Positions 7,655 to 26,906 of a DNA stretch of 64,000 bases are shown in pieces. Below the pieces are notes generated by a model. It had not been told where the DNA came from. It saw only the letters and a list, made by a program, of their open reading frames with translations, and did not search any database. The position numbers and the translations under genes are program-made. The stretch's first letter is position 1; each line of letters begins with the position of its first letter. Source of the stretch: Lysobacteraceae bacterium NML07-0707 (GTDB lineage: Bacteria > Pseudomonadota > Gammaproteobacteria > Xanthomonadales > Xanthomonadaceae); assembly GCA_002798295.1 (NCBI GenBank), contig NWQT01000017.1, positions 62,001-126,000 on the forward strand, written 5' to 3'.

Positions 7655-7683
7655 ATTATAGCCCGTCACCGATGAGCACAAGC
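7655..7683 (-). promoter_or_regulatory. Probable promoter of the wzt-glycosyltransferase-sulfotransferase operon
   Basis: The minus strand has a perfect TATAAT at 7655-7660. The best -35 is a weak TTGTGC about 15 bases upstream. Transcription would start near 7648, giving a very short leader before the ATG at 7633. This would let the last four genes be expressed independently of the heptose operon. Confidence 0.42.
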
Positions 7684-9993: not shown

Positions 9994-10563
9994 TTATTTG
10001 AATATGCATCTTTGCCTTTCCAAAAAATTTTTAGCTATTCTATAACCACGACCTATATCCGCCGCTTGCGCTGCCTGCATATCAGTATCCTTATCACCCA
10101 GCATCAGTGACAATGTCGAATCGGCGTCCCAATCGCGCATTGCCGCTTGCAACATTCCCGGCCGTGGTTTGCGGCACCGACACTGCGCCAGATATTCTCC
10201 AATACCAGCTTCAGGATGATGTGGACAGTAATAAGTTGCCAACAACGGGACTCCTTTCCCAGAAAATATACGATGCACCCAGGCAGTGTACTCAAGGAAT
10301 TGCTGTTCGTTATAGTAACCTCTTCCAATCCCTGCCTGATTGGTGACCACGATCAATAAATAACCCTTCTCACAGGCCTGCCTGCACAGCTCGAAGATCC
10401 CAGGCATCCAATCAGTCTGCTCTGGACGATGCACATAGCCATGATCGATATTGATTACGCCATCACGATCAAGAAACAAAGCTCGACGAGGCGTGTCAGC
10501 GGCAGCTAAAATTTCTTTGGCTGCCGGATCGATATAAGGTGGGCGCACTGTAGCAACATTCAT
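9994..10563 (-). CDS. gmhB: D-glycero-D-manno-heptose 1,7-bisphosphate 7-phosphatase
   Basis: GmhB removes the 7-phosphate from heptose 1,7-bisphosphate. The 189-residue HAD protein has motif I ALFLDRDGVINIDHG (about residues 28-42), VVTNQAGIGRG as motif II, a cysteine/histidine zinc site (YYCPHHPEAGIGEYLAQCRCRKPRPG) and motif IV LMLGDKDTDMQAA. These are diagnostic for the histidinol-phosphatase/GmhB subfamily. It overlaps hddC by 4 bases and is preceded by GGAG. Next to hddA and hddC it most likely acts on the alpha anomer, in the GDP-heptose branch, rather than on the beta anomer of the ADP-heptose route. Confidence 0.92.
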   Translation of the reverse strand: MNVATVRPPYIDPAAKEILAAADTPRRALFLDRDGVINIDHGYVHRPEQTDWMPGIFELCRQACEKGYLLIVVTNQAGIGRGYYNEQQFLEYTAWVHRIFSGKGVPLLATYYCPHHPEAGIGEYLAQCRCRKPRPGMLQAAMRDWDADSTLSLMLGDKDTDMQAAQAADIGRGYRIAKNFLERQRCIFK

Positions 10564-11258
10564 GCGAATAACTCCTGCGCGCGGTGATAGTCTTCCGGTA
10601 CTCCGATATCAATAAAGCCCCGAGTCTGCGTAAATGCCACTACCTCCCCAGCGAAGCATCTTGGACGCAATATTTCCTGCTCAAATGAAAATGGCGACTC
10701 AATTTGCATGGTGACCAAAGCTTCCACAGTAATAAAATAACAGCCGGCATTGATATAGCCTGCGCCTTGCCCGCCCTTTTCTTCAAAACCTATGACTTTT
10801 TCGTCTTGCAAACGCACTGCGCCATAGCGACCAACATCATCCACCTGTGCCAAGGCCATACCAATCGCGGCTCCATTGGCAATTACGCGCTCACGCAAGA
10901 CGGCGGGCGAATACTCCAGCCAGGTATCGCCATTGAATACATGCACACCAGTATCCGATTGCAAGGCAGATGCCGCATTTTTTAAGGCTCCCCCAGTGCC
11001 CAGGGGGCGATCTTCAATAATATGGCTGATCTTGATGCCGCACCACTCATTACCAATGGCTGCCTGAATTTTTTCAGCCATATAGCCACTGGCCAACACG
11101 ATATGCTGCATACCATCCGCCACCAACCTGTCGAGCAGGCGGCATAAAAATGGTTTGCCTGCGACCTGTGCCAGTGGTTTAGGCACATCACTGACCACAC
11201 TGCGTAGCCGGGTGCCTTGCCCTCCGACTAGAACGATGGCTTCTTCAAATATTTTCAT
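10560..11258 (-). CDS. hddC: Heptose 1-phosphate nucleotidyltransferase, GDP-heptose forming
   Basis: The 232-residue protein starts with the nucleotidyltransferase signature IVLVGGQGTRLRSVVSDVPKPL, where GGxGTRL binds the nucleotide and the Lys of PKP contacts phosphate. GTGGALKNA and FNGDTWLE follow, the latter with the catalytic metal Asp. In the HddC branch these enzymes join GTP and D-glycero-alpha-D-manno-heptose 1-phosphate. The assignment to heptose rests on position between gmhA and gmhB with hddA nearby. By sequence alone it could be another sugar-1-phosphate transferase. The gene overlaps gmhA by 14 bases and gmhB by 4. Confidence 0.87.
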   Translation of the reverse strand: MKIFEEAIVLVGGQGTRLRSVVSDVPKPLAQVAGKPFLCRLLDRLVADGMQHIVLASGYMAEKIQAAIGNEWCGIKISHIIEDRPLGTGGALKNAASALQSDTGVHVFNGDTWLEYSPAVLRERVIANGAAIGMALAQVDDVGRYGAVRLQDEKVIGFEEKGGQGAGYINAGCYFITVEALVTMQIESPFSFEQEILRPRCFAGEVVAFTQTRGFIDIGVPEDYHRAQELFA

Positions 11259-11832
11259 GCGGGAACACCCGAGCCTCGATCAGTGCACACAGCATATGGC
11301 CGATGAACTCATGTCCCTCCTGGATGCGCGGGGTTTCATTGGATGGCACGCGAAAACAGATATCGCACAGCGTCGCCAACTTGCCGCCCCCCTGCCCGGT
11401 AAAACCAATCACCTTGATACCACGCTCGTGGGCAGCCTCTGCCGCATTCACGATATTCGGTGAATTGCCGGAAGTGGAAATGGCGATGAACACATCTCCG
11501 GCCTTACCCAGCGCTTCTATCTGGCGGGCAAATACATAGTCATAGCCATAGTCATTACCGATTGCAGTCAAAATGCTGGTATCAGTGGTCAATGCTACTG
11601 CAGCTAAACCTGGACGGTCATAATAAAAACGGCTGACCAACTCACCCGCCCAATGCTGGGCATCGGCAGCACTACCACCATTGCCTGCAAGCATCAGTTT
11701 TCCGCCATCATTCAATGCTTTGCAGCATATGAGTACGGCTTGCTGCAGACTTTCCGCCAGCATAACGTCTTGCGACATTGTTCGAAAATTTGCCAACGCC
11801 CTGTCAAACTCAGCGGCAATCATGGTTTTCAT
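11245..11832 (-). CDS. gmhA: Sedoheptulose 7-phosphate isomerase
   Basis: GmhA converts sedoheptulose 7-phosphate to D-glycero-D-manno-heptose 7-phosphate, the first step of heptose synthesis. The 195-residue protein has a single SIS domain with LAGNGGSAADAQHWAGEL (about residues 47-64), the phosphate-binding loop, then AISTSGNSPNIVNA, and a C-terminal QEGHEFIGHMLC helix carrying active-site Glu and His. A GGAG site lies before the ATG. Start and stop overlap hddA and hddC. It supplies the heptose cluster and could also feed the ADP-heptose core pathway. Confidence 0.94.
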   Translation of the reverse strand: MKTMIAAEFDRALANFRTMSQDVMLAESLQQAVLICCKALNDGGKLMLAGNGGSAADAQHWAGELVSRFYYDRPGLAAVALTTDTSILTAIGNDYGYDYVFARQIEALGKAGDVFIAISTSGNSPNIVNAAEAAHERGIKVIGFTGQGGGKLATLCDICFRVPSNETPRIQEGHEFIGHMLCALIEARVFPHENI

Positions 11833-12869
11833 CGTTGTGCTCTCCAGGCAACTGCACCCTGCGGATTGAAATGAAAGTCCATCAGTTTGCCGCCCTCTCC
11901 ATTTAATGCCTGCACCAACCGGATACGATCACATGGGTCGCAGACGAACATCATAAAGCCGCCGCCGCCAGCCCCCGAAACTTTGGTGGCGCGCGCACCA
12001 TTAGCCATTGCCACACGCTCGACTTTGTCAATCATCGGATTACTGATGGAATTGGCAGTACGTTTTTTAGCAAGCCAGCCACGCTGAAAGGTGTCAGCAA
12101 AGGCATCGAAATCACCTTTTAGCAGTGCTTCTTTCATCAGCACAGCCTCTTGTTTCAGCTCATGCATGGCCTCAATTGAGTGCCCACTCGCAGCACTAGC
12201 GTTTTTCACCTGCTCATCAATAATTCGCGCCGACTCTCGCGATACACCGGTGAAATACAGCAATAGCGAGGCCTCCAGCTCCTGAGCCACCCATTCTTTA
12301 ATACGCAATGGATTAACGATGACACGGTCTCCGGGATGAAACTCCATAAAATTGAAGCCGCCAAACGCCGCTGCATATTGATCTTGCTTTCCACCAGAAA
12401 GCCCCAAATCTTTGCGCTCAATCTCGTAAGCAAGATGAGCAACTTCGTACTCCCCCAAAGGCAATGAGAAATACTCGGACAACGCCGTAATAATGGCAAC
12501 CACTAGAGTGGATGAGGAGCCAAGCCCAGAACCAGGTGGTGCGTCTGACCAGGTGCGAAGATGAATTGGTGGCAACTCACCATTCAAATAATCACGGCTA
12601 ATACGCCGACAACAACCTGCCAAAAGCGTAAGTACACCAGGTATTACCTTATCGTCCAGGCCACCCTGTGCACCCGACCAGTGCGCATTATGCTCCAATG
12701 ATTCCAGATGCCAATACTCATCGGCACTTTCCTGTACCAGGACATAAGCATATTTGTCAATGGCAGCATTCATCACAAAACCGCCATACAGATCGCAATA
12801 AGGCGCTACATCAGTGCCTCCGCCAGCAAGGCCAAGACGCAAAGGAGCACGGGCACGTACCAATTTCAT
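11829..12869 (-). CDS. hddA: D-glycero-alpha-D-manno-heptose 7-phosphate kinase
   Basis: HddA is a GHMP-family kinase that phosphorylates C1 of heptose 7-phosphate. The 346-residue protein has [17 protein letters not shown] at the N-terminus, the ATP loop [17 protein letters not shown] near residues 110-126 and the C-terminal GHMP motif [14 protein letters not shown] near 293-306. The family length fits. AGGTAAGGAA lies just before the ATG, and the start overlaps the stop of the giant fusion gene by 4 bases. Together with GmhA, GmhB and HddC this makes GDP-D-glycero-alpha-D-manno-heptose, used in S-layer glycans, capsules and O-antigens rather than in lipid A core. Confidence 0.92.
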
Positions 12870-15800
12870 TTCCTTACCTCATCCCGAATACCACAGGCAT
12901 CCAGCAATACCTTGCGTACCGCATCACGGGAAAAATGCTGCCGGGTATAATTCACACCTGCCTGTGATGCCATGCGCCATGTATCATCATCTATTAATAA
13001 ATGCTCGATACTTGAGGCAATTTCTTCTGGCGCTTGTTTCACTGCCACAAAGCCTTCAATACCAAGTAGTCCCTGAGCACCAATTTCGGTAGTAACAAGC
13101 GGCAAACCTTGCTGCAAGGCTTCTACCACCTTGCTCTTGACACCCGCACCAAAACGCAGTGGCACGACCGCAACACGGGCATTGGCATAATGCTGCGCTA
13201 GTACTTCATCGCTGACATAGCCTGTTACTTGCACTTGCGACCCGGCCAGAGCACGCACCTGCTCAGTCGGATTGGAACCCACCAGCCACAGTTTCAATTG
13301 CGGATGACGCTTCCACAGAATTGGCATGACTTCATTGACCAGCCACAGCGCCGCATCCACATTCGGCGGATGTGCAAAACCTGCGACAAACAGTACGCCT
13401 TCCCGACTCTCGGGGATTGCATCATCAACAAAGTGGTCATAAGCATAAGCATTGATGGCGCGCGCATCGACTTTTGGCTCAAGTGCGCGTACTTCACTGG
13501 CTTCTTCTTCGGATGGATAAAGCACCACATCTGATTCACGCCAAAGTTCACGCTCATTGCTCTCCATTTCAGCAGCCTGCAATGCTAATTGCGAATTTGC
13601 ACCCACGACTGTTGCTTCACTTTGCATGCGTTTGAAGTGCAGATCATGACCGTAATACACCACTTTGGCACGAGTCTTACTACGCACGGCACCAATCAAT
13701 GGGCGGCTTACATGTGGGCGCGACAGCAGTACTGCATCCAATTGCGCCCCATACTCATCCAGCATACGCTCAAAGCCATCTGACCAACGTATGCCGTGGA
13801 AAATTTCCACCCCCATCGTTTGCAAAGCGGGCGCGTACTGAGCATCATAGAAAAGGTTTTCTGGCCAAAATTTGACCACGCATCCTGCGTCCACCAACGA
13901 ACGGATAAAGGCCAACATAGTGCGTGAACCAGCATCACGATCAGGTTGTGGAATATAGTGGTCGACTACCAAAACCACCGGCCTTGCCCACGCCCGATCA
14001 CGCGCCCGAACAATATTTTCGGCATTGGGATAGTGCGCCTTCAGCTTTCCTTGCCAGCGTGCAAACAGTTTTTTCTGGTTCTCTACCTGATAAGCCTTAA
14101 TGCCGCTACCAGTATCAGTGCCATGCGATACGCCTTCGTGGTGGATCACCACCGAACGTGGCGCGTAATACACTTCAAAGCCGGCATCACGCACCCGGAA
14201 TGCCAAGTCGGAATCTTCACAATAGGCAGGCACAAAATACTCATCAAAGCCACCCAGTTGCCGCAACAACACTGCTGAAATCAGTAACGATGCGCCCGAA
14301 CAATAATCAACGCGGCGCACATAATTAAATTCACCCGCATCGGCATCTCCCAGCCGGCCATAGTTCCAAGCCGAGCCATCACTCCATATAATTCCACCAG
14401 CCTCTTGCAATCGCCCATCGGGATAAATCAGCTTCGAACCTACCATACCTGCATCTGGATGAGTATCAAATACCTCCAGCATTGCATCCAACCAGCCCGG
14501 TTGCACCTCGGTATCATTATTGAGGAAACACACATATTCTCCACGAGCAAGCACCAATGCCTGATTACAGGAAAGCAAAAATCCTAGATTTTCAGCATTT
14601 TCGTGATAGCGCAGACCCGGCACAGTACGCAGCACCTCCATTGCCGAATCACCTGAAAAGTCTTCCAGCACAATTACTTCATAGGTTGCATTATCGGGCA
14701 AAGCTTGAATTGAGCGCAGACAGCGCAAGGTATAATTCAGCTTGCCATAAGTTGGAATGACCAGCGACACCTTGGGGGAATTCCACTGAGCGAAAGCTAA
14801 GCCCTGAACAGAACATTCATCCTCTAGCACATTGGAATCGGAATTTCCGTTTTCCAACGGCTGTGGCATGCTCCACGGCAACATCGATGGAGGCTCGGGA
14901 ATTTTGAATTCAGCATGTGCTCCGCTAATATTCGCCTTCATGCGACGTAATAACGAGGTTATACGCCAAGATCTGGAAGCAAGCAGCATTTGCAAGGCTT
15001 GCTGTAATTGTTCGGCATAACCTTTTTGTAGGTTGAACTGGTGTTGCATATGTTGCAAAGCAGCACGCTTGTTGAGCAATTCCGTTTCCAGGCTTTGCAC
15101 TTGCAGCAAAGCATGCTTGCGCTCGATACGTAACTGCACCAGATCCATCACCTCCCCGCGCAAGCTTTCCAGTTCTTTGGATTGGCTCTTGGCCAAGGCG
15201 ACCACTTGCTCATGCTCAGCCACAACCTTGCCGTGCTCTTCACGTAAATCATCTAACTGCATATCTAGCTCCTTGGCCCAAGCAACTGTTTGCTCATGCT
15301 CAGCCACAACCTTGCCGTGCTCTTCACGTAAATCATCCAGCTGCATATCTAGTGCCTTGGCCCAAGCAACTGTTTGCTCATGCTCAGCCACAACCTTGCC
15401 GTGCTCTTCACGTAAATCATCTAGCTGCATATCTAGCGCCTTGGCCCAAGCAACTGTTTGCTCATGCTCAGCCACAACCTCGCCATGAACCTCACGCAAA
15501 TTATCCAGTTGCACATTCAACTTCTTTGCCCAACCAATCGCCTGCGCATGCTCGCTCACCAGACTACCATGCTGCTCGCGCAAGACTTGCAGCTCACCAT
15601 CTAGCTTTCTGGCCCAAAGTACCGTCTGCTCATGTTCAGCGGACGCACGCTGATATTCATGTTCCAGGTTTTGGAGCCGCTCACCTAGCATGACTACTCG
15701 GTCATCCGAATTATTCAGCGCTTGTTGCAAGATCGCGCTTTCGATCTTGGCAGCATCGACTTGTTGGCGACTATCAGCCAACATTTCAGCCAGTCCATCT

Positions 15801-16609
15801 ACAACGGAACTCGTCTGATCAAGCACCACATCCACGCTGTCCTCAATTTGTTGTCGCTGCATTTGTCCAACTTCAGCGATATACAAATCGCGCAATGGCA
15901 CCAACAACGGCAGCTCTACATGCCCAGAAGCATGATGATGCCGCAGCTGCGGACGCAAAAATTTTTCTATTTCTGCACATTGAGCAGCATCTGGTGCCAG
16001 CAATAGCCCCAAATCCCTGCCAATATGTTCAAGCGCGGCACGCCAGTCCTGCAAAATCCCCTGATAGCTAATGAAAGACCTACGCAACCTGCGGCTGACA
16101 ACTTCGGCCTCCCGCATATACCTTGCCCAAAGCAATTCACCCACAGCTGTCGGCACTTTGTTCCGCTTGTGCAGAGACTGAGCTACTTCTGAGGGGTCAC
16201 GGCTCACCAGCAGCACCCTTGGCTCGATACCTTGGCGCTGTAACTGATCTATCCACAATGGTGCCAGACGACATAAGCGCGGATCTTTCAACCCACATAG
16301 CTCATGCCCAACAAATTCGCGTTCAATCAAATCGGCAATTTTTTCCGCCGCCTGCCTAGCCGCTGCACTATCTAACCAATCCTTAGGCATCAGGCGAACA
16401 TCATCCCAACTCCTACCCAAGTCGAACATCAATCTTTCATTGATTTCCACTGCTTCGGCATGCTCCCAAAAGCCCAGCGGATTATCGTCTCCCGCAGGCA
16501 TCAACTTACTGCCCAGATATACCCCACAGATATTCAACAAGCGAGTTGCGAGTGAAGTGCCGCTACGATGCATGCCCAATACTAAGACAGCAATCGGAGG
16601 AGATTTCAT
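12866..16609 (-). CDS. Giant fusion: sulfotransferase, coiled coil with repeats, GT2 and GT4 domains
   Basis: At 1247 residues this protein joins three enzyme modules. Residues 1-230 are sulfotransferase-like, with [17 protein letters not shown] (P-loop) and [15 protein letters not shown] (3'-phosphate site). Residues about 260-560 are heptad-rich coiled coil with three near-identical 28-residue repeats at about 380-463. Residues about 612-860 are a GT2 domain ([36 protein letters not shown]). Residues about 875-1245 are a GT4 domain ([22 protein letters not shown]). It heads the heptose operon and overlaps hddA. One chain could extend and sulfate the same glycan, with the coiled coil as spacer or oligomer. 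No clear Shine-Dalgarno site precedes the ATG. Confidence 0.9.
15220..15471 (-). repeat. Three tandem 84-bp repeats inside the fusion gene
   Basis: Three head-to-tail units begin at 15220, 15304 and 15388, with a fourth, diverged one from 15472. Each codes for 28 residues such as [20 protein letters not shown] followed by VAEHEQTV. The copies differ at only a few bases, so they are young or kept alike by recombination. Unit length is a multiple of three, so gain or loss keeps frame and would only lengthen or shorten the coiled coil. More degenerate versions extend on both sides. Confidence 0.93.
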
Positions 16610-16641
16610 GAAAGAGAGGTGCGAAGGAGGAATATTTGCGA

Positions 16642-16647
16642 AGTATA
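16642..16647 (-). promoter_or_regulatory. Possible -10 box of the glycan/heptose operon
   Basis: TATACT lies on the minus strand about 33 bases before the ATG of the fusion gene. No convincing -35 box is found at 16-18 bases. The operon might use an activator or another box here. The promoter must lie in 16610-16770, since a terminator closes the upstream gene. Confidence 0.28.
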
Positions 16648-16770
16648 CGCCAGCGCATGACTCACCGCGACCCTATAGGCCTTAGCATAGCGTCATTCTT
16701 CACAGAAAAGTCTATACCGGGGAAGACCACCAACCAGCCGGGTAGCCAACAAGCGAAATATACCCAGAAG

Positions 16771-16806
16771 CAAAACAAGAAGCGGGCGGCTTACGCCACC
16801 CGCTTC
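16771..16806 (-). terminator. Strong Rho-independent terminator of the S-layer-like gene
   Basis: On the minus strand a 12-bp stem (16779-16790 with 16795-16806, one G-T type mismatch region, GTAA loop) is followed by TTGTTTTG. It begins about 35 bases after the stop codon at 16841. It isolates the highly structured upstream gene from the glycan operon. Confidence 0.9.
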
Positions 16807-16840
16807 TTTGTTGCTTAACCCTAAGGCTGTGTACTACGAA

Positions 16841-18598
16841 TTACAGCTTTACGGGCGGGGTCAGCCACTGGTTACCAATGGTCTTTTCCGGGGTCAAGTT
16901 GGTGACCGTACCATTGGTGGCGTTGCGGTTCAGAGCAGAGCCCTTGAAGTTACCGCAGCCTGCGGTGACGCGGACATACCACTTACCAGTACCGCGATCG
17001 TTCGGATCCAGGGCGCCCTTGACAGCGCGACCACGGCTATCCTTACCGGTCTCCAGTGTGTCGATGTTGAACTGCTCGGAAGCATGCGGTGCCAGCGTGT
17101 AGCTGAACGTGCCGGAGTGCTTGCCAGCATCGTCCTTAGCGTCGATGAAGACCGGGCAGTCAAAAGCATTGTTGTTGGTCAGGCGCAGGAACGACTGAGC
17201 CGTAGCATTCTTACCCGGGTTGACGTTCTGGAACACCATGCTGACGCCATTTTCCAGCAGCGGATGCAGGTTGAACTGACCACGCGGCGGGGTCAGACGC
17301 TGGGTCGCCAGCCTGTAGTCCACACCGATATCGCCAACCAGCTTCTCATTCACGACCATCACGTTGTCCTTGGCATTGCTGACCATGCAGAAGTAGACGT
17401 CAGTCGGACCCGGAGGATTGCTGGTGACCTGGGTGCCACCCAGCGAAGAAATCACAGTGGCCGGCAGCGTGAAGTTATAGGTAGCCTTGTCAGCACTCAG
17501 AGCACGAGTCACGCCCGCCGGGAAGCGATCAGCATCTGCACAAGTAGTGCTGCGCGACAGGAACATTTCCCCGCCCGGATTGCTGAAGGCAGCCAAGTTG
17601 GTGCCCATCACCTTGATGTCAAACACAGCACGGGTGTGAACATTCCACCAAGCTTGACGGGTACCGCTGGTACCGTCACCGCTGAAGTTCAGCACGTACT
17701 GGAGGGCGCCGCCATTTTCAGCCGCAGCCTTGGCGATATCAATGCGGACGCCACCCGGGCTCCAACGACGGATATCGTTCACAGTCAGGCCGGCAGCGCT
17801 GGCACCACCCACTTCACCGGTCGGCGAGAAACGGGCGCGACCATTGAAGTCTTCAATAGCGGTCGGAGTCTGACCACAGCACAGGAAGCTATTAGCGCCA
17901 ACCACGTCAATGCGAGCATTCTTGTTGGTTGCATCAAGCGAGCTATAGACCACACCCCACTTGGACTTGGCGATCACCTGGCGACCAGAGAGGATTTGAC
18001 GACCACCAGAGCCATCCCAAACCTGCGCGGTGATTTCCGCAGTGACACCACCCAGACCCGGAGCATCCTTACCGATGGTCTTCACCAGATTCTTGATATC
18101 CAGGCCATTGATCGAGATTGCCCAGCCATTCGGCTCAGTCGGGGTGACCACTTTGCCATCACCGGGGACGCGGACATCAAAGATCAGCTCAGAACCACCG
18201 GTGGTGTAAGAATAGTTAACCACTTCACCATTGGTGCCTGCAGACAGCGGAGTCACGCCGTCACCACCCAGCTCTGCACCCAGCACATAGCTACCAACGA
18301 TGTCAGCCAACGGACGCATTGCGTTCTCGTTGAAGACTACCTTATCTTCCAAGGTGACCTTGAAGCGGATCACATTACCAGCCTTAACAGTTGCCATCTG
18401 CGGGGCATCCGCAGGATGCGCATCAAGACGCAGACCATGCGGAGTCACAAGGCTGATGCCATCATTGACGATCAGTTCGCGAGCAAAGGTGATTTGAGTG
18501 TTCGGCGCCCAAATCAGATCAGATGCGGAGGCAGCACCCGGCAGAACTACAGCAGCAGCGATTGCAGAGGCAATCAGACGCTTATTCAGCTTAAACAT
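16841..18598 (-). CDS. Exported abundant surface protein, candidate S-layer protein
   Basis: No named family is recognised. The 585-residue product has a clean Sec signal peptide (MFKLNKRLIASA, hydrophobic core, cut after ASA at residue 25) and no membrane anchor. The mature part is rich in Gly, Asn, Thr and Val and looks all-beta. It has six cysteines (LCCGQ, TTCAD, YFCMV, FDCPV, AGCGN), an even number that allows disulfides in the periplasm. A GGAG site lies at the right distance from the ATG. A consensus -35, a leader of about 160 nt and a strong terminator suggest high expression. Lying between type II secretion genes and a glycan island, it may be a secreted, glycan-bound surface layer. 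An abundant secreted enzyme is not excluded, but I see no catalytic motif. Confidence 0.7.
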   Translation of the reverse strand: MFKLNKRLIASAIAAAVVLPGAASASDLIWAPNTQITFARELIVNDGISLVTPHGLRLDAHPADAPQMATVKAGNVIRFKVTLEDKVVFNENAMRPLADIVGSYVLGAELGGDGVTPLSAGTNGEVVNYSYTTGGSELIFDVRVPGDGKVVTPTEPNGWAISINGLDIKNLVKTIGKDAPGLGGVTAEITAQVWDGSGGRQILSGRQVIAKSKWGVVYSSLDATNKNARIDVVGANSFLCCGQTPTAIEDFNGRARFSPTGEVGGASAAGLTVNDIRRWSPGGVRIDIAKAAAENGGALQYVLNFSGDGTSGTRQAWWNVHTRAVFDIKVMGTNLAAFSNPGGEMFLSRSTTCADADRFPAGVTRALSADKATYNFTLPATVISSLGGTQVTSNPPGPTDVYFCMVSNAKDNVMVVNEKLVGDIGVDYRLATQRLTPPRGQFNLHPLLENGVSMVFQNVNPGKNATAQSFLRLTNNNAFDCPVFIDAKDDAGKHSGTFSYTLAPHASEQFNIDTLETGKDSRGRAVKGALDPNDRGTGKWYVRVTAGCGNFKGSALNRNATNGTVTNLTPEKTIGNQWLTPPVKL

Positions 18599-18977
18599 TG
18601 TTAAACTCCATTGGAAAAAGTACTCGAGCATCGTAGCCTGATCAGCGACCTATCCACCCTCCAATGCTGGCAAAAGCTCACAGATGGCAGAAAAGTCGAA
18701 AGAGCGATGTTTTGTGCGCGAGCTCTACTCGCCCCCTAATACATGCCCATCCCAACATGCTACACCATCAGATTAACGGGACATTAGCAGCGATGTCAAG
18801 CATTGAAACATTACTTTTCTTGATGAATTCCTCAACTTTAAAGTCCTTGAAAAGGATCCATCTTTCAACTTAACACACTGATTCCAAAGTAATTTTCAAG
18901 AAAAAAATTCAGCTTTCAGACTTTTCCTATAGCACAACGCCAATGCGTCCGAGCAAAGACACAAACCCAGATGTATT
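18599..18977. other. 379-base AT-rich intergenic region
   Basis: This gap between gspF and the surface-protein gene holds the promoter at 18770-18799 and the long leader of the latter. The part nearer gspF (18800-18977) has A/T runs but no hairpin-plus-T-tract that I would call a terminator. I see no open frame with coding character on either strand. Confidence 0.6.
18770..18799 (-). promoter_or_regulatory. Promoter of the S-layer-like gene
   Basis: A perfect TTGACA lies at 18794-18799 on the minus strand, with TAATCT 18 bases further (18770-18775). The leader to the ATG at 18598 would be about 160 nt, a length seen for stable mRNAs of abundant surface proteins. The weak -10 lowers confidence. 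Confidence 0.55.
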
Positions 18978-20189
18978 TTATCCGGCAATATCGTTGGCAC
19001 TGGTAATGGCAAGAATGATGCCGGTCATGATGACGCCGATCACGCCGCCGATTAGCAGGATGGCGATGGGTTCAAGCAAGGTGAGGAATTGCTTCATGCG
19101 GGTGCGGCCCGATTCGCGGTAGAGCTTGGCAAGCGAATCAAGCATGGCCGGCAGCTCACCGGACTGCTCGCCCACCCGGATCAGGTTGTAGCCGGTAGGC
19201 GAGAGCGTACCTTGTTCTTCCAGGGAGTCGGCCAAGGTACGGCCGCTGCGCACAGCGCGGGTGGATTCTTCCAGGCGGGCGCGGCGGCGTGGCGAGGCCA
19301 CGCTTTCTGCCGACAATGCCAGGGCTTCGAGCATGGGCACGCGGTTCCCCAGCAAGGTGGCCAGCACCCGCGCCCAGGCGGCGACTTCGGCCTCAATACG
19401 CCAGGTACCAAGTACCGGAATGCGCTCCATCCCCTGTAGCAAATTGGCACGCGCGGCAGGGCGACGCAGGACAAGGCTTGCGGCAAACACGATGCCTGCC
19501 AGCGCGATGCTGATCCAGAGGAAATTCTCGCGGGCAAACATGCCGGTATTGAGCACCGCCGAAGCCAGCCACGGCAGGTCATCTGCCCGCTTGAGCAAAG
19601 TGGCGAACTTGGGCACCACATAAGTGAACATCATCACCACCGCGCCAATGCCTGCCAGCACCAATACCATCGGGTAGGTCAGCGCCTGGCGCATCTCGTT
19701 GCGCACGCTGCGGTCGTAATCCATCTGTGCGGCGGCATCGGCCAGCGATTTGGCCAGCAGTCCTGCTTTTTCGCCGCTGCGCACCAAAGTATCAACATAG
19801 CGTGGCAACGGCAGCTTGGCCGCAGCCAGCGCCTCAGAAAACGGTTGCCCCTGACGCAAGGCAGCGGCGATGCCGGTAAAAGCATCGCGCATCTTCGGGT
19901 GCGGATTGGAACGCGCCTGGGCATTGACGGCATCTGCCAGTCCTACCCCCGCGCTCAGTAGTGTGGAAAGTTCCTGCAAGGCCAGGATGATGTCCTGGGC
20001 GCCCAGCTTGGCTTTACGCCCTGCCAGTACGCCACGGGGCGCTGCCTGCTCATCGGCAGGCTTGACCGAAAGCGGCATCAGGCCACGCTGCTCAATATCG
20101 CGTGCAGCTTCGCGCTCGCTGGCGGCGACGATTTCACCGTCGAGCTTGACACCTTCGGGGTTCAGGGCCTGATAACGGAAGCGACGCAT
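18978..20189 (-). CDS. gspF: Type II secretion system inner-membrane protein F
   Basis: GspF is the polytopic platform protein that contacts the GspE ATPase. The 403-residue product has the family start FRYQALNPEGVKLDGEIVAASEREA, two T2SSF domains (about residues 70-190 and 270-395) and three membrane segments (about 170-195, 225-250, 370-395). LLEPIAILLIGGVIGVIMTGI at the end is typical. It follows gspE with a 39-base gap. Genes gspG to gspD are on the other strand, unlike the single-direction xps order known from Xanthomonas. Confidence 0.95.
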   Translation of the reverse strand: MRRFRYQALNPEGVKLDGEIVAASEREAARDIEQRGLMPLSVKPADEQAAPRGVLAGRKAKLGAQDIILALQELSTLLSAGVGLADAVNAQARSNPHPKMRDAFTGIAAALRQGQPFSEALAAAKLPLPRYVDTLVRSGEKAGLLAKSLADAAAQMDYDRSVRNEMRQALTYPMVLVLAGIGAVVMMFTYVVPKFATLLKRADDLPWLASAVLNTGMFARENFLWISIALAGIVFAASLVLRRPAARANLLQGMERIPVLGTWRIEAEVAAWARVLATLLGNRVPMLEALALSAESVASPRRRARLEESTRAVRSGRTLADSLEEQGTLSPTGYNLIRVGEQSGELPAMLDSLAKLYRESGRTRMKQFLTLLEPIAILLIGGVIGVIMTGIILAITSANDIAG

Positions 20190-20228: not shown

Positions 20229-21911
20229 TCATACAGCGGTCACGCGCAGCACTTCGTCCACGCTGGTGATGCCTTGCCAGGCTTTGAGCAGGCCATCCTC
20301 GCGCAGAAAGCGGCAACCTTCGGCGCGCGCCATGGCTTTGAGCTCTTGATGGCTGGCACCAGCCACCACTGCCTGTTGCATGGCTTCGCTGACCGGAATC
20401 ATTTCATAAATCCCCACCCGTCCACGGTAGCCGGTGTGCTGGCAATGCGCGCAGCCCACCGGCTCACGCCATTGCGGCGCCTGCCCGGGCAATACCTTGG
20501 CCGCCCACGGTGCGGTTTCCTCGACGATTGCCGGCAATACATGCTGAGCCGGACGGGCACAATGTGGACACAGCCGCCGCACCAGCCGCTGTGCCTGCAA
20601 GCCTTTCATCGGCGCGGCTACCAGAAACGGCTCCACGCCCATATCGATCAGACGGGTAAAGGCGCCGATAGCGTCATTGGTATGCACGGTGGACATCACC
20701 AGGTGGCCGGTCAGGGCGGACTGAATGGCGATTTCCGCCGTTTCACGGTCACGGATTTCGCCCACCATGATCACATCTGGATCCTGTCGCAGAATTGAGC
20801 GCAGCACATTGGCAAAGGTCAGGCCAATATCGGCATGGGTTTGAATCTGGGTAATGCCTTCAAGCTGGAACTCCACCGGATCTTCGACGGTGATGAGCTT
20901 CTTGAGGCCGTCATTGCTGGCCGCCAAAGTGGCATACAACGTGGTGGACTTACCCGAGCCAGTGGGGCCGGTGACCAATACGATGCCATGTGCCTCACGA
21001 CTCCATTGCTGCAAGGTGTGCAAATGGTCGGCCGCCATGCCCAGCCGCTCCAGCCCCAGGTCTTTGCGCTCCTTCGGCAAAAGGCGCAATACGATGGATT
21101 CGCCATGCACGCCAGGCAGCGCCGAGGCGCGGATATCCATGGCCTGGCCACTGGCGCGTACAGTCAGGCGACCGTCCTGCGGCAGGCGCCGTTCGGCGAT
21201 ATCCATGCCGGAGATCAGCTTCAGGCGCGAGGCGACGGCATTGAAGCGATCACGCGGCAGATGCAGGCGACTGTAAAGCACGCCATCGATACGCAAGCGC
21301 ACCACGAACTCATGCTCGCCCGGCTCCAGGTGAATATCCGAGGCGCGCTGCTCTACCGCTTGTGCCATCAGGCTATTGACCAGCTCCACCACCGGAGCTT
21401 CTTCGGCCAGCTCGCGCAAGTGGCGGATATCATCGGCATGACTGGCATCAGCACGGCGTGCATGCCCCAAGGCATCGAGCAGGCGCTCCAGCAACTGATT
21501 GGGCGCCAGCACCCAGATATGTTCGTGACCGGGGAAAAGATAGGCCATCGCCTCGCGCAACTCCGGCGCTGCCGGGTCACGACTGGCACATAGCACCCTG
21601 CCCTCGCTGTCCTGCCAAATCAGTGCTTGACGGTCAATCATCCAGTCGCCGGGCAGATCAGTGCCTTCGGGCAAAGACCATTCGTAAATCGAAGGCGGCT
21701 CCAGGTCGCGCCCGAGCAGCGGCAAACCCAGCTGCTGCGACAGCGCATCGAGCAATTGTTCTTCTGACAATGCGCCGATACGGATCAGCAGATTGCCGAT
21801 GCGGCCGCCGACATCACGCTGCAACTCCAACGCACGCTCAAGGTCGGCCTCAGTAATGGCCTGACGTGCCAGCAGCAATTGCCCCAAAGGTTGTGCGGTG
21901 GATACGGTCAT
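20229..21911 (-). CDS. gspE: Type II secretion system ATPase E
   Basis: GspE is the cytosolic hexameric ATPase that drives pseudopilus assembly. The 560-residue protein has an N-terminal GspE-N domain (about residues 10-150, with LLDALSQQLGLPLL), Walker A GPTGSGKSTTLYATL near 319-326, an Asp box (ITVEDPVEFQLEGITQ) and Walker B-like VGEIRDRETAEIAIQSALTGH. It has the CPHC and CAHC pairs of a zinc domain near 450-490. The His-rich HTNDA motif is present. The ABC permease gene lies 12 bases upstream in the same direction, so the two are probably one unit. Confidence 0.96.
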   Translation of the reverse strand: MTVSTAQPLGQLLLARQAITEADLERALELQRDVGGRIGNLLIRIGALSEEQLLDALSQQLGLPLLGRDLEPPSIYEWSLPEGTDLPGDWMIDRQALIWQDSEGRVLCASRDPAAPELREAMAYLFPGHEHIWVLAPNQLLERLLDALGHARRADASHADDIRHLRELAEEAPVVELVNSLMAQAVEQRASDIHLEPGEHEFVVRLRIDGVLYSRLHLPRDRFNAVASRLKLISGMDIAERRLPQDGRLTVRASGQAMDIRASALPGVHGESIVLRLLPKERKDLGLERLGMAADHLHTLQQWSREAHGIVLVTGPTGSGKSTTLYATLAASNDGLKKLITVEDPVEFQLEGITQIQTHADIGLTFANVLRSILRQDPDVIMVGEIRDRETAEIAIQSALTGHLVMSTVHTNDAIGAFTRLIDMGVEPFLVAAPMKGLQAQRLVRRLCPHCARPAQHVLPAIVEETAPWAAKVLPGQAPQWREPVGCAHCQHTGYRGRVGIYEMIPVSEAMQQAVVAGASHQELKAMARAEGCRFLREDGLLKAWQGITSVDEVLRVTAV

Positions 21912-21923: not shown

Positions 21924-22748
21924 TCAAAGAAGGTCGGCAAAGCCCCGACGCAATACGGCAAAAGCACGCTGCCCGAGAACCAGCAGCAGTACAGCAACAA
22001 CACAATAAATGGCAAAGCCCGAGGGCGAAGGCCACTGCCCGTGCAAAACAGCCTCACGCATCGCTGCCACCGGCCAGGTGATGGGGTTGTAATCGACCAG
22101 CCCGTGCAGCACCTGCGGCACCATATTGCGCGGATAAAACACCGGCGCGGTAAACAGCATCATGGTGATCACCACATTGATGACCTGCCCCAGGTCACGC
22201 AGATATACACCCAATGCAGCAATCAGCAGCGACAGGCCGTATAGCAGCAATAGATACGGCAGCAAAATCAGCGGCACTGCCAGCGCGGAAAGATGCAGCG
22301 TGCCGTGAAAAAGCGCCGCCACGATACCCAGTAGCAACAAGCCAATAAGCGCATGGATCAGCGCAACCCCCAACGGCACGGCCACCAGAACTGGCAACGG
22401 AAACACCATTTTGCGCACAAAATTGCTATGCCGCTGCATCAGTCCCGGCGCCTGCCCCACCGATTCGGCCAACATGCTGTGCACCAACAAACCAACATAC
22501 AGGTTGAGCACAAAACCCAGATTGTCGCCCTCGGCAAGTCCCGGCCAGCGCGCACGGAAGATGGAGCCGAACACAAAACCGTACATCGCCAGCATCAGCA
22601 GCGGCAGCAATATCGGCCATAAACGCCCCAGCAAAGTGCCGCGATAACGCGCTGCCATCTCCTGCGCTACCAGCGTGCGCCACAGCGAGAAATTGCGCAT
22701 CAGGCGCTGATAGAAAGGCATGGACAAGGAAAGCGGGGGCTGGGACAT
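21924..22748 (-). CDS. wzm: ABC-2 type polysaccharide export permease (Wzm-like)
   Basis: The 274-residue protein has six hydrophobic segments and the family patterns: QEMAARYRGTLLGRLWPILLPL near the N-terminus (the RYRxSxLGxxWxxxxP type), VYLRDLGQVINVVITMMLFTAPVFYP and DYNPITWPVAAMREAVLHG. This identifies a polysaccharide-exporter permease of the KpsM/Wzm group. I use the ATG at 22748; the frame is open to 22886, but that extension looks antisense-like and overlaps gspG. It is an orphan, since its ATPase is not adjacent. The only ATPase in the window is the Wzt-type protein at 6347-7633. Why it stands directly before gspE is unclear. Confidence 0.9.
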   Translation of the reverse strand: MSQPPLSLSMPFYQRLMRNFSLWRTLVAQEMAARYRGTLLGRLWPILLPLLMLAMYGFVFGSIFRARWPGLAEGDNLGFVLNLYVGLLVHSMLAESVGQAPGLMQRHSNFVRKMVFPLPVLVAVPLGVALIHALIGLLLLGIVAALFHGTLHLSALAVPLILLPYLLLLYGLSLLIAALGVYLRDLGQVINVVITMMLFTAPVFYPRNMVPQVLHGLVDYNPITWPVAAMREAVLHGQWPSPSGFAIYCVVAVLLLVLGQRAFAVLRRGFADLL

Positions 22749-22864
22749 CCGACAAGCCAGCACGGGTGCAAGAAGGACGCATAGAGTAACAGGCGATGGC
22801 ACAAATTCAGCTCTCATGCTCAGCCTGCGCTTATACTTCGGCAGTTTCCCGGAGCAATGACGGA

Positions 22865-23326
22865 TTGATCGTGCGCAAAGCCCCATTTTCCTTAGCGCGC
22901 CGCCAAAGCGGCTTTACCCTGCTTGAAATGATTGTAGTACTGGTCATCATCGGCCTGATCATGGGTCTGGTCGGACCACGGCTGTTTGGACAGGCCGACA
23001 AGGCCAAGGTGCAGACTGCCGAAACCCAGGTCAAAATGCTGCGTGGCGCCCTGCAAACCATGCGACTGGATATTGGCCGAGTACCAACAGCCGAAGAAGG
23101 ACTTGCCATCCTCAATACTGCTCCCAACGACCCACGCATTGCACAACGCTGGCGTGGCCCGTATCTGGATGAGGCGCTTCCTGAAGATCCCTGGGGCAAC
23201 CCATATCAATATTCCCCTGCCGCCAGCGGCTCTTCGCCCTTCTCACTCTATTCTTTAGGTGCCGACGGCCAGCCCGGCGGTGAAGGCTATGACGCGGATA
23301 TTGGCTACGTTCCGGATCGGCAATAA
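22865..23326 (+). CDS. gspG: Type II secretion major pseudopilin G
   Basis: GspG is the main subunit of the pseudopilus. The 153-residue precursor has a type III (prepilin) signal, RRQSGFTLLEMIVVLVIIGLI, cut after Gly and N-methylated at the following Phe; Glu5 is present. The mature C-terminus has the calcium-binding pattern of GspG (PLYxx-like YLDEALPEDPWGNPYQY, then GADGQPGGEGYDADIG). The start is uncertain: TTG at 22865 sits 10 bases after GGAG, GTG at 22871 is also possible. It diverges from the wzm-gspEF unit and begins the plus-strand half of the system. Confidence 0.93.
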   Translation: MIVRKAPFSLARRQSGFTLLEMIVVLVIIGLIMGLVGPRLFGQADKAKVQTAETQVKMLRGALQTMRLDIGRVPTAEEGLAILNTAPNDPRIAQRWRGPYLDEALPEDPWGNPYQYSPAASGSSPFSLYSLGADGQPGGEGYDADIGYVPDRQ

Positions 23327-23720
23327 TTTCCCGCGCGCATCTTGCGGCTTCACCCTGCTGGAATTGATGGTGGCCTTGGCCGTCATGGGGCTTGCCATGG
23401 CTCTAGTAGCACCATCAGGAATGCGTATGGTTGCCAGTTGGCAAGAACGTGATGAGGTGCAATCAGTATTGCGGGCAATTTCTGCAATACCGGCCAAAGT
23501 CAGACGCAACAGCATAGCGATCACACTGGATAGTTCGACATCAGCAGAAAAAGTACATGAACTGATCCCGCTGCCAGCCGGCTGGCAAATGGAACTGGAT
23601 CAGCCACTGAAAATCCATGCCAGTGGTGCCTGTGAGCAAACCGATGCCACTTTGACCACGTCCCGACAGGAGTTGCGTCTACGTATTCAAACTCCCTTCT
23701 GTCAACCGATACTGCTCTGA
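23289..23720 (+). CDS. gspH: Type II secretion minor pseudopilin H
   Basis: This 143-residue protein has a prepilin peptide, SCGFTLLELMVALAVMGLAMA, preceded by a short basic leader. The rest is a variable domain as in GspH minor pseudopilins. Its start ATG at 23289 lies inside the end of gspG (38-base overlap), so translation is likely coupled. It would sit near the tip of the pseudopilus. Identity rests on position between gspG and gspI, as the globular domain is poorly conserved. Confidence 0.85.
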   Translation: MTRILATFRIGNNFPRASCGFTLLELMVALAVMGLAMALVAPSGMRMVASWQERDEVQSVLRAISAIPAKVRRNSIAITLDSSTSAEKVHELIPLPAGWQMELDQPLKIHASGACEQTDATLTTSRQELRLRIQTPFCQPILL

Positions 23721-23730
23721 CTCCCAGTAC

Positions 23731-24180
23731 ATGCTCATTTTCCGCCCTACTGCAATGCATCCTGACCGACAGACGGGCTTTACCCTCCTTGAAGCAATCG
23801 TGGCACTGGTGATCATGGCCACCACCTTGCTCGCACTTTATGCCTGGCTTGGCAGCAATACTATTGCCGCCGCCCGAGTGCAAGCGACCAGTGACGGGCT
23901 GACTGATGCCAGAGCCGCACTGGAGGTGATTGAGGGCATTAACCCGATGCAAGAACAGAACGGCAGTCGCGAAGTTGGCGAGATGATAGTACGCTGGCAA
24001 GCTGAGCCGATCACCGACCGTCGCACTGGTATCACTCAGTCAGGCTCGGCAGCTCCGTTTGACTTCACCTTGTATCAACTGCATGTGGAAACCCTGCGAG
24101 CTGGGCAGATCACTCATGATTTCAGTCTGCGCAAGGCCGGCTGGCTTGCAACCATGACGCTTTTGGAAGACGAGCCGTGA
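23731..24180 (+). CDS. gspI: Type II secretion minor pseudopilin I
   Basis: The 149-residue product carries the prepilin motif QTGFTLLEAIVALVIMATTLL and a 100-residue globular part with alternating hydrophobic strands (FDFTLYQLHVETLRAG). An in-frame ATG at 23755 gives an 8-residue shorter leader and may be the true start. GspI works in the tip complex with GspJ and GspK. It overlaps gspJ by 4 bases. Confidence 0.88.
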   Translation: MLIFRPTAMHPDRQTGFTLLEAIVALVIMATTLLALYAWLGSNTIAAARVQATSDGLTDARAALEVIEGINPMQEQNGSREVGEMIVRWQAEPITDRRTGITQSGSAAPFDFTLYQLHVETLRAGQITHDFSLRKAGWLATMTLLEDEP

Positions 24181-24782
24181 TACGTCACCTGTCTGCTCGT
24201 GGCTTTACCCTAATGGAGATGATCGTCGTGTTGTTGATCTCCAGCATGGCGGTGATGCTCGGCTTTCAGTCACTAATGCAGTGGCAGCAGGCCGAAGCCA
24301 CTTTTTCACGTATTGGCAATGAAACTGAAGCCAATACTTTGACTGCAGCTTGGTGGCGCAGTTCGATGCGCGGCCTGATGCCGGTGGAAAAAACACCTTT
24401 TTGGGGCAATGCCAGCAGCCTTTCGGGTTTTACCAACAACCCGATTTTTTCCACAGCCGGCGCAATGACCCCGATCCACTGGCAGGTGCTAGAAAATACC
24501 GAAGGCAACGGCATGCGGCTTGTCTTAAAAGAGAATAATCGCATTCATAATTTACCGATCGACGGAGGAGCCACAGCACAGTTTGCCTATATGGACAGAG
24601 ATGGCGGCATTCACCCACAATGGCCCCCCAAGGTACTTGGTGAAGCCCCTACCCAGCTACCACAGGCCATTCGACTCAACATCCGTTACAGCAACGGCGA
24701 AGAACGCAGTTGGGCAGCCCATGTAATTGGTCCACTTAACCCTTATTACAGAGTATTTTCAATCGAGGAAGACTTCGAGTGA
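24177..24782 (+). CDS. gspJ: Type II secretion minor pseudopilin J
   Basis: The 201-residue product begins with a very short leader before the prepilin motif SARGFTLMEMIVVLLISSMAV. The larger body (about 170 residues) is as expected for GspJ, which binds GspI and GspK at the tip of the pseudopilus. The GTG start overlaps the gspI stop, and its end overlaps gspK by 4 bases. There is no internal break. Confidence 0.88.
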   Translation: MIRHLSARGFTLMEMIVVLLISSMAVMLGFQSLMQWQQAEATFSRIGNETEANTLTAAWWRSSMRGLMPVEKTPFWGNASSLSGFTNNPIFSTAGAMTPIHWQVLENTEGNGMRLVLKENNRIHNLPIDGGATAQFAYMDRDGGIHPQWPPKVLGEAPTQLPQAIRLNIRYSNGEERSWAAHVIGPLNPYYRVFSIEEDFE

Positions 24783-25855
24783 AGATGTCGCATCCGACTT
24801 TACCACCGGCTCGACAGCGTGGATTTGTGCTGATCATCGTCCTGTTGACACTAGTAGTCCTGACTTTGCTTGCTGGTAGCGCCGCACTAACCACCCAAAC
24901 TGCAATCGATCGTGTGCAAGAGGAGCTGGATATATTCGAGGGAGAGCTAGACATGCTGTCTACCCGTGACACTTTGCTATTCATGCTCTCCACCCAACCA
25001 CGCAATGCCGCCGGTCTCAGCACCGAACGCTATGTCAGCCCGCCACAGTTTTTCGATGAAGACAGCATCGACATGTTTGGCAGTGTTATCACTGGCAACG
25101 AGATCCGACTGGATCGCCGTGCCTATATCGGCATCGGCAAGGCTGCCTTTGCGCTTCAGGATGATCGAGGCTTGTTGAATCCGAACTGGGGGGATCCATT
25201 CATGATCCACAACATGCTGAAAATGCTGGGTGTCGCGCCTGAGCGCTATACGCAATATTTGAATACATTGGAAGATTATCAGGACGAAGACGATCTTCGC
25301 CTTCTGAATGGTGCCGAGCAAGAACAGTACCAAGCAGCTGGCCTGCCCCCCCCCAGCAACCAACCCCTCACAACTCCACTTGAGTTGCGGCGAATCCTGC
25401 TGTGGAGCGATTTACTGGCTCCGATGAGCAACGACTCTCTGCTACAAATCATGACCGTTGCCCGCACCCCGCAGCTCAATCTCAATACCGCTCCGGTGGA
25501 GGTATTGCGCTTACTACCAGGCATGGATGAAGAAAGTGTGCGCAGAATGATGCTGATCCGTAATGAAATGCCTTTCATGTCAATCCACAGCGTACAGACC
25601 AATTTCCCCCTCAATACGCTTTCCGAAGACTCCTTGACCCTCTTCCCAAATCCGTCCGGAAATCTTATTCTATGGGATCGTCACAGGGGCGGAAGACGGC
25701 TGATTCACTGGACACTTTCGTCTCTTCCCAATGGCCTTCCGCCTTGGCGGATCGACTACGAGATCGAGCTTCCACGCAATGAAGAATCAGGCCAGTCCTT
25801 GGATAAAACGCCTACGTCGGAACTTTTCCCCCAAGAGAATACGAGCCGGCACTGA
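24779..25855 (+). CDS. gspK: Type II secretion minor pseudopilin K
   Basis: GspK is the largest minor pseudopilin and caps the tip. The 358-residue protein has a hydrophobic start RQRGFVLIIVLLTLVVLTLLAG without Glu5, as is usual for GspK. A large alpha-helical domain contains DDRGLLNPNWGDP and the helix-hairpin-helix TPQLNLNTAPVEVLRLLPG. The stretch WTLSSLPNGLPPWRIDYEI lies near the end. It overlaps gspJ by 4 bases and gspL by 77. Confidence 0.93.
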   Translation: MKMSHPTLPPARQRGFVLIIVLLTLVVLTLLAGSAALTTQTAIDRVQEELDIFEGELDMLSTRDTLLFMLSTQPRNAAGLSTERYVSPPQFFDEDSIDMFGSVITGNEIRLDRRAYIGIGKAAFALQDDRGLLNPNWGDPFMIHNMLKMLGVAPERYTQYLNTLEDYQDEDDLRLLNGAEQEQYQAAGLPPPSNQPLTTPLELRRILLWSDLLAPMSNDSLLQIMTVARTPQLNLNTAPVEVLRLLPGMDEESVRRMMLIRNEMPFMSIHSVQTNFPLNTLSEDSLTLFPNPSGNLILWDRHRGGRRLIHWTLSSLPNGLPPWRIDYEIELPRNEESGQSLDKTPTSELFPQENTSRH

Positions 25856-26906
25856 CAGAACTGCTTTTTTGCCGGGCGGCGGCTCATCTCGCCGCTTACT
25901 GGTCTTGGTCGGCCGTGAACTTTGCCTGTTTTTAAGTATTGATGCATCACGCATCGCTGCCAAGCAGCGACGGGAATTCATTGAGTTGGCCGTGCGTCGC
26001 GCAGCGCCATTTCCAGACCCCGAATACGACTTGACTTGGTTTGGCTCGCGCGCTGCCATCTGGTACTGGCCACGTTCTCGAGTAAAAAGCTTGTTAGGAA
26101 CCGGTGTTCCAACGGACTCCCCTGTGCTGGCCGAATCGGGTTTTATCACTCCAATGGTCAACACTGATGGTGGCGTCGAACTACTGCAACTGGAGCATGG
26201 CTACAACGGCAGAGTCTGGGATCAGCAGCGTCTACTGGCAGACCGTTGGTGGCGCGACATCCCCGACCAAGCCGAATGGACTACTTTTGTACGCAGTGCT
26301 GGCCTATCGGCCAGCACCATCCCTGATATTTCACAAGCACAATATCAGCAACAATCCTGGTTTCAACGCACCGGCGCTCGCCGCTCCGGGATTGGCAGCA
26401 GCTCTGGTTGGCTGAAGCCTACCGCCATTGCGCTAATATCACTCGGCTGTTTGACAGTCGGCCTTCAGCTTGGCGCTGGCTTGCGCGGCATAACTGATCT
26501 GCACGGTGCCGAGCAAGCACGAGACCAATTAGACACACAGGTTGAAGCCGTCTTAGTTGCCAAAGCCGAAGCTGAGGCCAATGCCAGCGAATTGCTTGAA
26601 CTACTACGACTGCGTCCCATACAAACACAAAGCACTTTGCTGGCAGAGGTCAGAAATGTTATGCCGACATCCAACTGGCAGATCAATAACTGGACGCAGC
26701 CCGAGCCCGGCAAGCTTGAAGTGGCGTTCATCATGCCCGATGCCACACCTGATGCCTTGGTCAGTGCTTGGGAAGCATCATCAATGTTCAGCTCAGTCAG
26801 TGCCAATATCGACAGTAACTCGGCACAGCGCATCGTTGTCCGCGCCAAGATCCTGCCTTCATTTCAGGTACTACAACAGTATTCGCCCATGGAGACTGCA
26901 CCATGA
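25779..26906 (+). CDS. gspL: Type II secretion inner-membrane protein L
   Basis: GspL bridges the cytosolic GspE ATPase and the inner-membrane complex. The 375-residue product has a cytoplasmic actin-like part (about residues 1-215) and one membrane segment near 230-250 (PTAIALISLGCLTVGLQLG). A periplasmic ferredoxin-like part of about 120 residues follows. I start it at the ATG at 25779 (MKNQASPW), inside the end of gspK; the frame is open from 25731 without a better site. It overlaps gspM by 4 bases. Sequence conservation is low for this family, so position helps the call. Confidence 0.88.
   Translation: MKNQASPWIKRLRRNFSPKRIRAGTDRTAFLPGGGSSRRLLVLVGRELCLFLSIDASRIAAKQRREFIELAVRRAAPFPDPEYDLTWFGSRAAIWYWPRSRVKSLLGTGVPTDSPVLAESGFITPMVNTDGGVELLQLEHGYNGRVWDQQRLLADRWWRDIPDQAEWTTFVRSAGLSASTIPDISQAQYQQQSWFQRTGARRSGIGSSSGWLKPTAIALISLGCLTVGLQLGAGLRGITDLHGAEQARDQLDTQVEAVLVAKAEAEANASELLELLRLRPIQTQSTLLAEVRNVMPTSNWQINNWTQPEPGKLEVAFIMPDATPDALVSAWEASSMFSSVSANIDSNSAQRIVVRAKILPSFQVLQQYSPMETAP

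Follow-up and report, generated by a model that had tools for sequence, protein, structure and literature searches.

The gene at positions 16841-18598 on the minus strand of the window, the 64,000-nucleotide stretch of Lysobacteraceae bacterium NML07-0707 that was analysed, encodes a putative S-layer protein (SLP). In our reading, to which we give a probability of roughly 0.78, it is a subunit of the VapA/NpdA/Slr4 kind, secreted by the neighboring type II secretion system (T2SS) and carried on an O-antigen-type glycan. An earlier note had proposed an S-layer protein from the DNA letters alone, and the proposal gains weight from a conserved genomic slot, fast divergence, an expression level predicted from codon usage, homology to a second protein group and weak matches of relatives to the Slr4 family. 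From what has been described in Aeromonas, Delftia/Paracidovorax and Pseudoalteromonas, we infer T2SS export, lattice formation and glycan anchoring. Briefly, SLP would cross the inner membrane by Sec and fold in the periplasm, where pairs of cysteines may form disulfides, before leaving by way of GspD, the secretin of the neighboring T2SS. Outside, it would assemble as a lattice on an O-antigen-type polysaccharide; the glycosyltransferase and GDP-heptose genes nearby would build this glycan, Wzm/Wzt would export it and the neighboring sulfotransferases would decorate it. The features of the gene itself are the following.

16841-18598, minus strand: putative S-layer protein, a 585-aa ORF aligned with its relatives
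18524-18598, minus strand: Sec-type signal peptide, residues 1-25, judged by eye, with similar N-termini in the alignment of relatives
16844-17281, minus strand: C-terminal domain, residues 440-585, from conservation and a structure model
16777-16808, minus strand: intrinsic terminator of the SLP gene with a 14-pair stem, from a terminator scan
18772-18799, minus strand: candidate promoter, TTGACA-16-GTTAAT, by eye

The ORF runs from an ATG at 18598 to a stop at 16841, and the closest relative used here is the homologue at 81% identity in the sister genome, that of Lysobacteraceae bacterium NML08-0793. Together with 25 other proteins, the two form a 27-member alignment (A1). The N-terminus, MFKLNKRLIASAIAAAVVLPGAASA, appears to be a Sec/SPI-type signal, and neither a second hydrophobic stretch nor a lipobox or sortase-type tail was seen by eye; the signal peptide and the lack of an anchor, as first described, are borne out by the sequence and by A1. 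The same applies to the cysteines, which do number six, two of them (C353 and C404) being invariant across the 27 proteins, and to the richness in Gly, Thr and Asn (11, 9 and 7% of the mature protein). The isoelectric point is 7.0 for SLP and 5.8 for the sister protein; it lies below 5 in 24 of the other 25 proteins of A1. The earlier note had held that a match to a periplasmic enzyme family would speak against an S-layer protein; among Pfam, NCBIfam and PDB sequences, SLP matches no family, enzyme or S-layer protein. An antisense frame of 598 aa (16808-18604, plus strand; 706 aa in the sister genome) spans the entire SLP gene, probably because of strong codon bias.

Regarding transcription, a perfect -35 hexamer, TTGACA at 18799-18794, lies about 200 nt upstream of the SLP start, with GTTAAT 16 nt further on. 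The leader deduced by eye from this candidate promoter measures about 165 nt, in agreement with the consensus -35 and the leader of about 160 nt reported before, whereas the automatic promoter scan did not list the TTGACA/GTTAAT pair. Conservation of the leader in the sister genome is only moderate, and an Rfam search of 16600-19100 returned no match. The strong terminator that had been noticed is also there 3' of the gene, as a stem at 16808-16777 followed by GTTTTGCTTC. Since three terminator-like sites were found in the region versus 2.2 expected in shuffled sequences, only the stem length of the SLP terminator stands out.

Profile scans of the neighbors confirmed the placement of the gene between T2SS genes and a heptose/sulfotransferase glycan island:

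3806-5439, minus strand: two sulfotransferases, the second below the Pfam cut-off (profile scan)
5424-6350, minus strand: GT4 glycosyltransferase (profile scan)
6347-7681, minus strand: Wzt ATPase with a Wzt_C-like C-terminal domain below cut-off (profile scan)
7705-9963, minus strand: GT2 glycosyltransferase with two domains (profile scan)
9994-12869, minus strand: GDP-heptose set, GmhA-, HddA-, GmhB- and HddC-like genes (profile matches)
12866-16609, minus strand: large multidomain glycosyltransferase with GT2 and GT4 domains
18978-20189, minus strand: GspF (Pfam T2SSF)
20229-21911, minus strand: GspE ATPase (Pfam T2SSE)
21924-22886, minus strand: Wzm-like ABC-2 permease (Pfam ABC2_membrane; Wzm/RfbD and KpsM models below cut-off)
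22796-30200, plus strand: T2SS genes gspG, H, I, J, K, L, M (195 aa), N-like (168 aa) and D (736 aa), by profile match, gene order and synteny

The T2SS is thus laid out in two divergent arms, with wzm-gspE-gspF one way and gspG to gspD the other, and the true start of the Wzm-like permease probably lies downstream of the ORF start. In the second arm, GspD matches the Pfam Secretin model, the TIGR02517 and GspM models score below cut-off, and the 168-aa N-like ORF hit no family in the profile scans; the genes that we take to be gspG to gspL were named by their order and their pseudopilin-like N-termini. Within the GDP-heptose set, GmhB alone passes a curated cut-off, the GmhA-, HddA- and HddC-like assignments being best matches below theirs. 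The large glycosyltransferase begins with a region that is sulfotransferase-like by eye only, followed by near-identical coiled-coil-like repeats and variants of these. Two secretins are encoded in the window genome (a 2.39-Mb assembly), the second within a pilM-Q-like run recognized by eye, and the T2SS of the window is apparently the sole one present.

The locus recurs in the family. A protein search recovered SLP matches in 32 of 395 family genomes, to which an iterated profile adds one (G379); the matches of another, G147, are repeat proteins only. The neighborhood was examined at 32 loci from 31 Lysobacteraceae genomes, the window's own being left out, with protein identities down to 23%. 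Within 10 kb of SLP, gspE is present at 23, wzm and wzt at 25 each and a sulfotransferase at 24 of these loci. Genus g5 (G020, G095 and G122) contributes three SLP loci, each lacking all four genes; there, SLP and gspE are on separate contigs and the wzm-gspE stretches (L099, L101-L103) contain no SLP match. Other misses fall at contig ends (L090, L091, L095 and L106, as well as L094 for the sulfotransferase) or, at L049, where the stretch examined stops short, the sister's wzt being about 9 kb away. At L057, L059 and L097, gspE spans two frames or scores below the 500-bit threshold. Also not found were wzm and wzt at L062, wzt and the sulfotransferase at L092, and the sulfotransferase at L063. 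In relatives, the usual order is sulfotransferase, glycosyltransferase and wzt on one side, reading away from SLP, and wzm on the other, reading toward gspE and onwards; the alternative, as in the window, runs wzm, gspE, gspF and SLP together. The slot therefore persists across rearranged orientations and many genera. In one genome (G146, L062:8729-10179), SLP is split over two overlapping frames, which indicates a broken or misassembled gene.

The distribution of SLP also follows that of its T2SS. A close gspE type (at least 65% identity, the next being 61%) is found in 31 of the 395 family genomes, and the raw genome lists for SLP and close gspE share 29 (Fisher p 3e-38, uncorrected for relatedness). 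After curation by hand, SLP is again present in 29 of the 31 close-gspE genomes, G379 having been gained by the profile and G147 dropped because it has repeat proteins only, with G023 unassessable on a 5.3-kb contig. Within the window's genus, close gspE is found in two of 17 genomes and SLP in the same two. When the A1 profile was run against 274 genomes of the class, matches were obtained in 15, all but the window's own lying within model positions 1-70, i.e., the signal peptide plus a little more. Phages gave no SLP match, and a search of plasmids with one member of the second protein group (A2, see below) returned nothing. Outside the family, close gspE does not always mark an S-layer locus. 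As an example, G593 and G449 (gspE 55%) have no further marker gene within the stretches examined, and G615 (61%) has T2SS genes and no SLP match in its stretch. Two gspE-like genes at 55% identity (L150:10038-11747 and L151:8760-10469), from two genomes of another family, have no recognized T2SS neighbors in the stretches examined.

Codon usage predicts high expression of SLP. With 20 ribosomal genes as the reference (mean 0.698), its codon adaptation index of 0.622 is the highest of the 24 locus genes (gspH left out), followed by gspF at 0.527; with an earlier reference set, which contained wrong ORFs, it ranked third among 43 window genes. At 21 of 24 loci, SLP has the lowest effective number of codons (ENC) of all genes compared, a count that omits L002, the partial or short SLP frames of L062, L090, L091, L095 and L106, and L064, L098 and L100, which have no comparison gene. 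At the same time, outside the sister genome, identity is 23-45% for SLP versus 65-80% for GspE and 50-75% for Wzt. Predicted high expression in combination with fast divergence fits a major surface-exposed protein. Elsewhere in the genome, beside a ribosomal protein operon on contig C23 (L145:1435-3018), there are short repeats translating as FLSCLFGSE and SLPNRQLRK, which look like a dispersed DNA repeat.

A second protein group, A2, was found at another type of T2SS. Its gspE occurs in 19 genomes (57-61% identity, E 1e-192 to 1e-206), and in 12 of them a protein of 429-486 aa with a similar signal peptide is encoded next to gspD; these proteins were picked by eye in 12 stretches (L108-L111, L113-L120). 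L121 (G169) has no such protein in its stretch, and G082, G071, G242, G214, G264 and G313 were examined only up to gspD. In 10 of the 12, wzm and wzt follow the A2-type protein; at L111 the contig ends after it and at L119 (G206) wzm/wzt lie beyond gspE instead (L087). A MetB-like gene intervenes in nine of the 12 and an EtfA-like protein occurs in two (L108 and L119), both recognized by eye, and the locus resembles the metB-etfA LPS locus of xanthomonads, as far as the accessible text of that report goes (PMC2238763). Eleven A2 proteins were aligned, that of L111 being omitted as very like L110 and similar in size, and comparison of the A1 and A2 profiles with hhalign gave a probability of 97.9 and an E of 6.2e-13 over 416 columns. 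Judging by these profiles, the A2 group is a full-length remote homologue of the SLP group, a link made by profile-profile comparison only, as a plain A2 profile search does not recover the window SLP. Against 299 genomes of the phylum, the A2 profile gave a single match, in G701. In G701 and G485 (gspE 61%), which lie outside the order, T2SS genes form one run with those for an A2-type protein and a sulfotransferase, with no wzm or wzt in the stretches examined.

The closest published counterpart of the locus is in Aeromonas. According to the accessible parts of two reports (PMC4483657, PMC4413209), the S-layer cluster of A. salmonicida lies between Wzm and Wzt, a sulfotransferase-domain gene coming after Wzt, and that of A. 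hydrophila AH-1 has a truncated Wzm upstream and complete Wzm/Wzt downstream. The genes are reported to run SpsE F G H I J K L M orf2 D VapA. Of two A. salmonicida mutants described, that in wzt is without O-antigen and that in vapA without A-layer protein. As in Aeromonas A450 and AH-1, the window has a T2SS and a putative S-layer gene beside Wzm and Wzt, which in Aeromonas belong to an ABC-exported O-antigen cluster, as far as those texts describe it. The layout Wzm, SpsE-D and VapA, Wzt matches that of the window in a comparison of gene arrangement and protein sizes, and both share the succession E F G H I J K L M orf D. In the same accessible texts, AH-1 SpsM, Orf2 and SpsD have 198, 166 and 743 aa (195, 168 and 736 in the window), and A. 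salmonicida Wzt has 438 aa (444 in the window). By analogy, the glycan exported by the window Wzm/Wzt is inferred to be LPS O-antigen. Unlike in Aeromonas, the window T2SS is divided between arms that diverge, wzm precedes gspE, SLP is next to gspF and not, as VapA, after gspD, and the glycan genes are a GDP-heptose set.

Two further systems resemble the locus. NpdA of Delftia and Paracidovorax is described, in the accessible parts of PMC10765051 and PMC3110197, as having a T2SS-type signal peptide, no conserved domain and an adjacent gsp cluster; SLP shares with NpdA (WP_011797163) the signal peptide, the lack of a known domain and the gsp cluster beside it, by description only. The part of the NpdA study available lists orthologues for Lysobacter species, Dokdonella and Rudaea and reports cryo-EM S-layers in 15 of a further 16 cultures (PMC10765051). 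The A2 proteins may be NpdA orthologues, the window SLP forming a distinct group remotely homologous to them. In a partial literature survey, the only S-layer genes named for the family were NpdA orthologues from Lysobacter and Dokdonella, tabulated in PMC10765051; the accessible texts of PMC8455137 and PMC12280403 mention S-layers or NpdA and, there, nothing on Lysobacteraceae. The Slr4 gene of Pseudoalteromonas tunicata (PF19526) follows a T2SS operon, in the accessible text of PMC7821379, and the SLP group resembles it in the adjacent operon, the beta-rich sequence and, in some relatives, C-terminal profile matches. These matches are below the gathering score, and the window SLP has none. 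Given that a near-identical Aeromonas arrangement is published and that the NpdA and Slr4 genes, too, adjoin a T2SS, as far as these sources go, the linked surface system is, contrary to the suggestion, not unusual in kind.

The C-terminal domain shows higher conservation than SLP overall, with a mean column identity of 47% versus 30% for the whole protein. In five of 27 proteins, this domain matches Pfam Slr4 below cut-off (best E 3.2e-5; best score 23.7 bits against a gathering cut-off of 25). Ten of the 27 were viewed in detail, and three of these match, all from profile position 263-264. Such matches vanish in full-length scans of the relatives, and the window SLP has no Slr4 match either as full protein or as C-terminal domain. 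Conversely, the Slr4 model found nothing over cut-off in 16 genomes, only one of which gave any match (E 0.19), and in a control set two of 14 genomes had below-cut-off matches. The structure prediction and remote-homology search called for in the earlier note differed in outcome: the homology side yielded the A2 group and the weak Slr4 matches in relatives, and the full-length structure prediction, with SLP plus one relative, reached only pLDDT 36 and was not used for fold searching. The C-terminal domain modeled alone (pLDDT 56) is probably a beta-sandwich. With this model, all Foldseek matches have E above 0.001, and the VIA-align list, which does not bear on families absent from it, is led by TM1070 and the Anabaena sensory rhodopsin transducer (ASRT; the ASRAH domain) at Z 8-9; RbmA follows lower down at Z 5. 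The match to 1nc7 has a Z of 9.1 over 107 residues (rmsd 3.8) and those to ASRT 8.2-8.8, a best Z of 7-8 being usual for unrelated models. The modeled sandwich is similar to that of ASRAH; the model is of low confidence, however, and no sequence similarity to ASRAH was found. ASRAH domains are predicted to bind sugars, in the accessible text of PMC2739507, and with Foldseek matches this weak beside the VIA-align list, sugar binding stays a lead. In G020 (genus g5; L006 and L008-L022), the stretches read contain the domain as four tandem copies, in frames of 824-1848 aa on contigs other than that of gspE, a recurrence that suggests a general surface-binding module. Its better conservation, the G020 tandems and the ASRAH-like model make the domain the first candidate for the glycan anchor.

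Several observations tell against the S-layer reading: SLP itself matches no S-layer family, the Slr4 matches of relatives are sub-threshold and disappear in full-length scans, SLP and T2SS are on different contigs in genus g5, the tie to A2 needs profile-profile comparison, and the isoelectric point of 7.0 sets SLP apart from relatives that are mostly acidic. The C-terminal domain also bears on the alternative that SLP is an abundant T2SS-secreted glycan-binding protein of a matrix or capsule, forming a non-crystalline coat on the cell or biofilm and RbmA-like in function. The beta-sandwiches to which the low-confidence model is similar, the tandem domains of the long G020 proteins and the description of Slr4 as S-layer protein and matrix component alike (in the accessible text of PMC7821379) all point that way. 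Against it, SLP is mostly a single gene in a VapA-like slot, with high predicted expression and remote homologues in an NpdA/VapA-like arrangement; yet these features fit a lattice and an amorphous coat alike, and overall we judge the alternative improbable. It is also conceivable that a general T2SS secretes SLP, an enzyme or adhesin, as just one of its cargos, and that a shared chromosomal hot spot accounts for the glycan genes next to it. An apparently sole T2SS could carry several cargos, and part of the SLP profile is similar to three sequences of Dr/Afa adhesins (E 0.02-0.06); the lack of any Pfam or NCBIfam enzyme family and a slot kept across rearranged orientations nevertheless make this very improbable. 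A protein that stays in the periplasm and aids the assembly or export of polysaccharide would suit the Sec signal and the Wzm/Wzt neighbors, but is hardly credible, as the linkage tracks T2SS genes as well as wzm/wzt, expression is predicted to be high, divergence is faster than that of the exporter and the A2 homologues lie beside a different T2SS.

Under the preferred reading of a T2SS-secreted S-layer subunit, a further, rather doubtful proposal is that lattice protein, T2SS and anchor glycan move and diversify as one module in Lysobacteraceae, the ASRAH-like C-terminal sandwich reading a sulfated, Wzt-terminated heptose O-antigen whose sulfation would set the attachment of the coat. S-layer proteins are too diverse for easy detection by sequence, and the recurring slot of T2SS, SLP, Wzm/Wzt and sulfotransferase flags them family-wide. 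The locus also suggests a concrete way in which the S-layer of a Gram-negative cell may hold on to a glycan, with the C-terminal domain, the Wzt-exported polysaccharide and the sulfotransferases as its components.
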